From positions 930,001-994,000 of the forward strand of contig NZ_AP027059.1 in NCBI RefSeq assembly GCF_030295325.1: a stretch of DNA of 64,000 bases, written 5' to 3'. The stretch is from Haliovirga abyssi (GTDB lineage Bacteria; Fusobacteriota; Fusobacteriia; Fusobacteriales; Haliovirgaceae). Position numbers and translations under genes: made by a program. Under the pieces are notes generated by a model. It was not told where the DNA came from. It saw only the letters and a list, made by a program, of their open reading frames with translations, and did not search any database. Shown piece after piece: positions 3,475 through 50,709 of this stretch (its first letter is position 1; the number at the start of each line of letters is the position of its first letter).

Positions 3475-3548
3475 ATGTGAGGTTTTATGTTGAAAATGCT
3501 TATTCAGTGGTGTGTTGAGTATAGTTATTATGATTTTCATAGAAACTC

Positions 3549-3699
3549 TTTTATTTACTAGGAAAGTATAAATTTGTCTAGAAAATAATCTACGCCATTT
3601 TTTTGAAATATGCGATTTTTCAAAGCGAAATTTTTCAGAATCCAAAAATTTTGAAAAATATTTATGTCTTACCAGATGAAGCGTAGCTTATTTTTTTAT
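3549..3699. repeat. Dispersed intergenic repeat, family A, copy 1
   Basis: About 150 bp that is closely matched at 33209-33352 (same order: TACTAGGAAAGTATAAATTT, GAAAATAA..TACGCC, ATGCGATTTTTCAAA, AAATTTTTCAGAA, TATTTATG.CTTACC, AGATGAAGCGTAGCTTATTTTT). It contains inverted segments, for example GAAAATAA..TACGC against GCGTAGCTTATTTTT. It has no open reading frame of interest and no transposase. The 447-bp gap between fba and groES holds the fba terminator, this repeat, and the groE promoter with CIRCE. Confidence 0.8.
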
Positions 3700-3785
3700 T
3701 TGTAAGAATAAAAAATAAAAAGGTAGAATTTAGATATATATGGCAATATTTCAAAATAAACAGGTTTAAACTCGTATAATTACAG

Positions 3786-6061: not shown

Positions 6062-6243
6062 GATGTTTTAAGTACTTTTATAATAAAATGTTTGACCCAC
6101 AAAAAGGTATTTAGTTTTCTTCATACCACTACATATAGTGTTCGAAAGCTTTTACGAAACTATATGTAGTGGTATGATTTTAGAAAACTACCTTTTTGGG
6201 GTCTAATCATAAAATATATAAAAGTTATTTTTTAAATGTTCGT
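6062..6243. repeat. Large hairpin (MITE-like) element between groL and the EAL gene
   Basis: A long imperfect inverted repeat. The inner 18-bp arms are perfect (CATACCACTACATATAGT at 6122-6139 against 6159-6176). The arms continue outward through AGTTTTCT/AGAAAACT, AAAAAGG/CCTTTTT and GACCC/GGGTC (6094-6203), and more loosely to the ends. The right end, read on the minus strand, is GAACATTTAAAAAATAACTTT, which matches the start of the 50-bp units found at 10.4, 22.5 and 42.8 kb. The rest of the 466-bp gap holds only the groL terminator and AT-rich sequence. It could be a non-autonomous mobile element or a structured RNA. Confidence 0.85.
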
Positions 6244-10414: not shown

Positions 10415-10490
10415 GGAACGTTTAAAAAATAAGTTTCTCATTTTTTGTTATAAAAACGCTTGAAGAACATTTAAAAAATAAAAACTATGG
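10415..10490. repeat. Family B 50-bp repeat: one full and one partial unit in the thyX leader
   Basis: GGAACGTTTAAAAAATAAG...TTGTTATAAAAACGCTTGAA, followed by the start of a second unit, GAACATTTAAAAAATAA. It matches the units at 22516-22717 and, on the other strand, at 42947-43046. It ends about where the thyX ribosome binding site GGAGGG begins, so it forms most of the 5' untranslated region. Confidence 0.8.
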
Positions 10491-22510: not shown

Positions 22511-22515
22511 TTTAA

Positions 22516-22717
22516 GGGATATTAAAAAAATAAGTTTTATATATTTTGTTATAAAAACGGTTGAAGAACATTTAAAAAATATTTCTATATATTTTGTTGT
22601 AAAAACGCTTGAATCGTTGCGTATTTTAAAACAAAAGGATAAAGTTATTTTTAAAGTGTTCCTAAATTATTGCATATTTTAAAACAAAATTGGAATGTTA
22701 TTTTTAAGCCATTCCTA
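22516..22717. repeat. Family B 50-bp repeat array: two direct and two inverted units
   Basis: Units at about 22516-22564 and 22566-22614 run GAACATTTAAAAAATA...TTTTGTTGTAAAAACGCTTGAA. Units at about 22615-22664 and 22668-22717 are in the opposite orientation (TTGCGTATTTTAAAACAAAA...GTTATTTTTAAAGTGTTCC). The whole array reappears reverse-complemented at 42846-43046; the 24 bases at 42847-42870 are the exact complement of 22692-22715. It fills the gap before the histidine kinase gene. Confidence 0.88.
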
Positions 22718-22734
22718 GCTGGGAGATATAAATT

Positions 22735-33186: not shown

Positions 33187-33210
33187 AAAAAAGGGGGAAA
33201 CCCCTTTTTT
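33187..33210 (+). terminator. Rho-independent terminator after the phasin-like gene
   Basis: AAAAAAGGGG, GAAA tetraloop, CCCCTTTTTT, starting just after the stop codon. Repeat family A begins in its T tract. Confidence 0.92.
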
Positions 33211-33352
33211 ATTTACTAGGAAAGTATAAATTTATTCAGAAAATAAGGTACGCCGTTTTTTTAAATATGCGATTTTTCAAAACAAAATTTTTCAGAAGCC
33301 AAAAATTTAGAAAAATATTTATGCTTTACCAGATGAAGCGTAGCTTATTTTT
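33209..33352. repeat. Dispersed intergenic repeat, family A, copy 2
   Basis: Near-identical to 3549-3699 over its length, with scattered substitutions and small indels. It starts in the T tract of the preceding terminator and ends just before the -35 box of the TlpA-like gene. Confidence 0.85.
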
Positions 33353-42828: not shown

Positions 42829-42845
42829 TTAACTGAAAGTTATAT

Positions 42846-43046
42846 AGGAATGGCTTAAAAATAACATTCCCATTTTGTTTTAAAATACGCAATGTTTTAG
42901 GAATGATTTAAAAACAACCTTTTTATTTTGTTTTAAAATACGCAATGGTTCAAGCGTTTTTATAACAAAAGATATAAAATTATTTTTAAACATTCTTTAA
43001 GCGTTTTTATAAAAAAATATGAGAACATTATTTTTTAAACGTTCCA
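42846..43046. repeat. Family B 50-bp repeat array, inverse of the 22.5-kb array
   Basis: Four units. Two read GGAATGGCTTAAAAATAACATTCC / ATTTTGTTTTAAAATACGCAAT (42846-42892, 42899-42946), then two in the opposite sense begin AAGCGTTTTTATAACAAAA (about 42947-43046). The first unit is nearly the exact reverse complement of 22668-22717. The array can fold into a long hairpin. Confidence 0.88.
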
Positions 43047-43081
43047 TAGTAAAAAAACTTTTAAATTAGAAATAATTGTGA

Positions 43082-43087: not shown

Positions 43088-43095
43088 TAATTATG

Positions 43096-43192
43096 AATAT
43101 CTTAAAAAGAATCTTCCTATTTTGTTATAAAATATGCAAATAATTAGCTGTTTTTATAAAAAAATATGAGAAACCTATTTTTGTTACTTAGG
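43096..43192. repeat. Family B repeat: an inverted pair in the trpE-like leader
   Basis: ATCTTAAAAAGAATC...TTTTGTTATAAAATATGCAA (43096-43140) faces GCTGTTTTTATAAAAAAATA...CCTATTTTTGTTAC (about 43146-43188). It lies between the promoter and the ribosome binding site of the trpE-like gene. Confidence 0.7.
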
Positions 43193-50677: not shown

Positions 50678-50709
50678 AAGTCTTTCTAAAATTTTAGGAA
50701 GGCTTTTTT
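50678..50709 (+). terminator. Rho-independent terminator after folD
   Basis: A 12-bp stem with T-G pairs (GTCTTTCTAAAA / TTTTAGGAAGGC) extended by two A-T pairs, then a T tract. A family A repeat fragment begins in the T tract. Confidence 0.85.

Follow-up and report, generated by a model that had tools for sequence, protein, structure and literature searches.

We analysed a window of 64,000 bp from Haliovirga abyssi, corresponding to bases 930001-994000 of a 2.43-Mb chromosome; the genome also has a second contig of 0.30 Mb. The window contains several arrays of units of about 50 bp, here called family B, which lie where the original prediction from the sequence had placed them: two four-unit arrays at 22.5 kb and 42.8 kb, a degenerate pair beside the second of these and one and a half units before thyX (Table 1). 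As predicted, two units point each way in the 22.5-kb array; the same element, read from the opposite strand, makes up the 42.8-kb array. Direct reading confirmed that bases 42847-42870 (GGAATGGCTTAAAAATAACATTCC) are the exact reverse complement of 22692-22715. An exact duplication of the target ATA borders the 42.8-kb array, at 42844-42846 and 43046-43048, and within this array the inner copy has TTA on both sides (42897-42899 and 42997-42999), which is TAA in the orientation of the element. The inner copy of the 22.5-kb array is flanked by TGA (22562-22564) and TAA (22663-22665).

Table 1. Family B features in the 64,000-bp window, with positions counted from its first base.
Feature	Position	Strand	Length	Remarks
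Weak A-arm remnant	6208..6241	-		the centre that follows differs, ATGATTAGACC..TAGTTTTCTAAAAT, and is also present in element C1:1464417-1464537
Outer A arm of truncated element	10415..10461	+		
Second A arm, start only	10464..10483	+		cut off before thyX (10500)
Left target bases of 22.5-kb AABB	22513..22515	+		TAA; partner TAG, 2/3 bases match
AABB element, AB nested in AB	22516..22715	+	200 bp	ends GGGATA..CATTCC
Nested inner AB of 22.5-kb array	22565..22662	+	98 bp	
Right target bases of 22.5-kb AABB	22716..22718	+		TAG
AABB element, opposite orientation	42847..43045	-	199 bp	
Nested inner AB of 42.8-kb array	42900..42996	-	97 bp	
Single AB element, degenerate	43094..43182	-		43.5 bits, covariance model R1

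To describe the family we used its simplest complete form, AB, a 99-bp inverted-repeat element that forms an imperfect palindrome (GGAACG...CGTTCC). Its arms A and B are homologous and constitute the terminal inverted repeats. What had been described as modular units in mirror-image arrays must therefore be redefined: each unit of roughly 50 bp corresponds to one arm of a 99-bp hairpin, and the four-unit array, AABB, consists of one element lodged in the middle of another.

A BLAST search with the 22.5-kb array as query returned 40 strong copies in its own genome, and a covariance model built on the 100-bp form of AB gave at least 134 matches there (weakest E=4e-6), distributed over both contigs. 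A pattern for the A unit matched the genome 103 times, compared with 0 for a reversed control; this difference and the covariance matches place the family beyond chance, and the genome-wide search thus revealed copies beyond those noted in the window. All of these counts are lower bounds, as scoring covered 150 of the 5704 first-look candidates. The parsed stretches contained at least 333 units, comprising 92 AB, 19 AABB, 4 AAB and 4 ABB elements, a few tandem forms and single arms, and in every parsed copy the A and B arms face each other. Identity between nearest neighbours ranged from 76 to 100%, which indicates that activity was spread over time. Beyond this genome, the AB covariance model R1, applied with stricter filters, had 0 matches in 95 other genomes of the same order, and 59 relatives from that order yielded weak short fragments only. 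Exact scans likewise gave 0 matches, in two runs over 84,980 genomes and one over viral contigs; the family's own genome may have been left out of these scans.

Variants of AB were also found. Twelve copies carry an extra, well-conserved 46-bp centre, X, between the arms (CGTTGGGCGTAGTTTTTTATGTGGTTTTCATAAAAGAACCTTGAGC; for example, L131:4361-4516). This centre contains a small hairpin of its own and is lacking in an otherwise similar AB at L118:1505-1603. Remnants of 35-51 bp, located at C1:440892, 682138, 1636665, 1857758 and 2200120, retain the outer ends and, as read by eye, the target bases. The two longest remnants share one break point, located between short GTTAT repeats, a pattern that hairpin-promoted deletion would produce.

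Both ends were intact in 105 of 119 two-sided copies, which mostly measured 97-101 or 194-203 bp; the other 14 have degraded ends and were excluded from the end analysis. The boundary of AB was set by eye on the first 30 loci, after which we scanned duplication lengths from 1 to 9 and found that 3 bp was prominent. An exact 3-bp duplication flanked 84 of the 105 intact copies, against 29 expected (permutation maximum 44 in 20,000). Because the boundary had been chosen on part of these copies, the fair figure is that for the held-out copies, among which 61 of 75 had an exact 3-bp duplication (20 expected; maximum 32 in 5,000 permutations). There were no 4-bp duplication matches in these 75 copies. 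The duplicated trinucleotides were mostly TAA, TTA or TAT, within a target consensus, Y|TWA|RTW, that is asymmetric, with Y before the trinucleotide and R-T-W after it, on the B side. The T at position +2, which was spotted in the sequence logo before it was tested, occurred in 68 of 84 targets compared with 28 of 84 at the mirror position, and in 49 of 61 compared with 18 of 61 in the held-out copies.

All 105 intact copies are intergenic. Among the 94 that lie between co-directional genes, 44 have the downstream start no more than 50 bp away and 51 have the upstream stop at such a distance, as judged from crude longest-ORF boundaries. The expectation that the arrays sit just upstream of genes was thus only partly correct. 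Both orientations occur (61 versus 33).

These precise terminal inverted repeats, the 3-bp target duplications that recur in held-out copies and the more than 130 dispersed intergenic copies bear out the suggestion that the arrays are non-autonomous mobile elements. On these features of the sequence, family B is very probably a MITE-like non-autonomous DNA transposon, its membership resting on ends, duplications, copy number and location. Bacterial MITEs such as Correia, Chunjie, QMITE and ERIC are, like family B, AT-rich elements of less than 500 bp with terminal inverted repeats and target duplications, mostly intergenic, present in tens to hundreds of copies and accompanied by truncated derivatives (PMC10969869). 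Unlike these MITEs, family B consists almost entirely of its inverted repeat, has an oriented TWA target, nests in itself at one loop trinucleotide and has no autonomous partner that we could find. Pneumococcal BOX elements are also modular and interspersed, with terminal repeats, target duplications and insertion of repeat into repeat, and they vary in how many boxB modules separate boxA from boxC (PMC3049150). The modules of family B, in contrast, are homologous arms, and its long form is explained by nesting; we do not place it among the BOX elements because its arms meet head to head instead of following the boxA-boxB(n)-boxC order. REP/BIME sequences, the targets of IS1397 and ISKpn1, resemble family B as high-copy intergenic palindromes that are preferred insertion sites (PMC1525189). 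In family B, however, inserter and target are one family and the palindrome is itself flanked by target duplications, so that it does not belong with REP/BIME, palindromes without target duplication. A CRISPR array was rejected, as about 0-3 bp separates neighbouring units and there are no unique spacers. A literature search for self-nesting bacterial MITEs with 3-bp targets found nothing closer than BOX, RUP and SPRITE clusters. Family B is a new MITE-like family, unusual in nesting within its own hairpin loop.

A 3-bp TWA/TNA target duplication and ends that start with G characterize the IS1031 and ISL2 groups of the IS5 family and the eukaryotic PIF/Harbinger-Tourist elements, and family B shares both features. 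Though the target is similar, we do not claim membership of IS5 or PIF/Harbinger, because a search for DDE_Tnp_1, DDE_Tnp_1_2 and DDE_Tnp_4 transposases (PF01609, PF13586 and PF13359) found no match in the genome with controls working. PF07592 had no genome match, and its controls gave no signal either. PF00665 (rve) identified two insertion-sequence families and one fragment; these two insertion sequences were rejected as partners, as their ends, TGTACCC.. and GGTAGTGTCAAA.., differ from those of family B. Extra GGAACGTTTAAAAAATAA sites were considered as ends of an autonomous element and turned out to be the 35-51-bp remnants or one copy of the AXB form. The matching transposase end that the original prediction proposed to look for was thus not found among the five Pfam families or by an exact end-pattern scan.

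To understand how the four-unit arrays arose, we removed the inner AB together with one TAA from each parsed AABB. This restored an AB of 98-100 bp in 15 of 18 cases, and in 14 of those 15 the rejoined centre matched at least 14/15 consensus bases. The three exceptions are truncated or misparsed. The inner AB was flanked by identical trinucleotides in 13 of the 18. Because removal of the inner copy restores AB and the inner flanks match, we interpret AABB as AB nested in AB, an arrangement that in all likelihood began with insertion of one AB at a single TAA in the hairpin loop of another.

The evidence on how often this happened is mixed, and comparison of the copies gives roughly even odds that nesting occurred repeatedly. 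A serious rival, although we think it the less probable of the two, is that AABB was nested once and then moved as a 200-bp unit, and that recombination or gene conversion with solo ABs later swapped its outer arms. Consistent with a single nesting, the inner copies cluster: grouping by anatomy required 3 label changes for them in a tree of about 105 columns in which most forks are unresolved. An AU test of the 14 main inner copies gave p=0.67, which shows non-rejection only; this group was picked after a first tree. Inner and outer distances are correlated over all 16 AABB copies (Mantel r=0.48, p=0.002), and the correlation stays near 0.5 under nearly all exclusions. Without two diverged copies it falls to r=0.09 (p=0.22), a value to which we give no weight because the exclusion was post hoc and the most favourable of 120 two-copy exclusions. 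In addition, 6 of the 16 outer copies are nearer to another outer copy than to any solo AB, two of them being 99% identical, and there are hybrid ABs with inner-type arms outside AB centres (C1:2020814 and C1:2167454). The outer target bases are also particular to each AABB element.

Other observations argue against a single nesting. On the same tree the outer copies required 14 label changes, a single clade of outer copies was rejected (AU p=0.007), and for 10 of the 16 outer copies the closest relative is a solo AB rather than another outer copy. Bases 1-4 past the junction vary among the AABB elements (AACC, AAAC, ATCG, ATCA and ATTA), and in 7 of the 13 with a readable junction all 22 bases compared agree with those of the nearest solo AB. 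Conversion tracts would therefore have to stop within a few bases every time. The polyphyly of the outer copies and the variable junction bases thus favour repeated nesting over one composite founder.

We also considered what might direct repeated nesting to one point. By a matrix of the genomic targets, other sites in AB score better than the central TAA, which ranks 4 or 20 of 190, so that the matrix alone did not predict the nesting site; a preference for the loop would consequently need structure. The inner copies themselves have TGA at their own centre in 15 of 18 cases, compared with TAA in 56 of 81 solo ABs, and no matched genomic target is TGA. A more speculative reading, which we regard as unlikely, is that a lineage of AB now parasitizes its own family, homing to the loop of the hairpin in resident ABs, always at the same trinucleotide and with the same orientation. 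If so, the TGA centre of the inner copies would protect them from further nesting.

An improbable alternative to a mobile element, partly anticipated by the original prediction, is that the arrays have been retained for a function as RNA structures or regulatory elements, whether mRNA hairpins, attenuators or terminators. The predicted folding was clear for the 42.8-kb array, which was more stable than its shuffles (z -4.0), and weak for the 22.5-kb array (z -1.95). Many copies are close to starts or stops, and in the inner stem 32 cells changed on both sides, compared with 7.8 expected (0/500 shuffles; at most 7 in slid controls). At the RNA level, however, the idea fared poorly: no Rfam family matched family B, the 22.5-kb array has neither a terminator-like site nor a promoter excess, and the copies occur in both orientations. 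In a small sample, G-U and A-C combinations in the inner stem were about equally frequent on the transcribed strand (19 versus 16), which counts against RNA-level selection because G-U should exceed A-C there. Relatedness among copies and quasipalindrome correction can also produce compensatory change, and the changes in the stem are compatible with DNA-level hairpin recognition, template-switch quasipalindrome correction and shared ancestry. Compensatory changes in repeated hairpins thus need not signal functional RNA. Tandem or mirror duplication of a 50-bp unit by slippage or palindrome growth would fit homologous units that number 1 to 4, but is very improbable, as symmetrical AABB elements (19) outnumber AAB and ABB together (8), neither AAABBB nor pure AA occurs among the parsed copies, and duplication predicts neither matching trinucleotides at the inner junctions nor a normal AB after removal of the inner copy.

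Taken as a whole, the best explanation is a MITE-like AB element that nests in itself, in which our overall confidence is about 0.8, with repeated nesting at the same site having roughly even odds. In this model, a putative transposase acting in trans would recognize the arms, and AB would insert at intergenic Y|TWA|RTW sites with duplication of 3 bp. The hairpin loop of a resident AB may be a favoured target, and an AB lineage would have entered different resident ABs several times, at the same central TAA and in the same orientation, to give AABB, or A-[AB]-B. AAB, ABB, single arms and the 35-51-bp remnants would then be deletion products. One simple event, self-nesting of a transposon at its hairpin loop, would account for the puzzling modular arrays, with many copies in one genome. 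Family B may also serve as a natural data set on target choice, offering oriented 3-bp targets, perhaps a preference for the loop and perhaps a point change that confers self-immunity.

The window also contains another family of palindromic repeats (CTAGGAAAGTATAAATTTG..CGTAGC), at 3531-3720 and 33204-33352, with weaker copies at 50703 and 52777; it is probably family A of the original prediction. One copy lies directly to the right of a family B element in L015. This repeat also accompanies one of the rve-type insertion sequences, an element of about 1.49 kb with a 454-aa ORF, ends starting TGTACCC.. and eight copies (L153-L160). In 5 of the 8 copies the palindromic repeat is found on both sides of the element, at about the same point in three or four of them, which looks like palindrome-targeted insertion.
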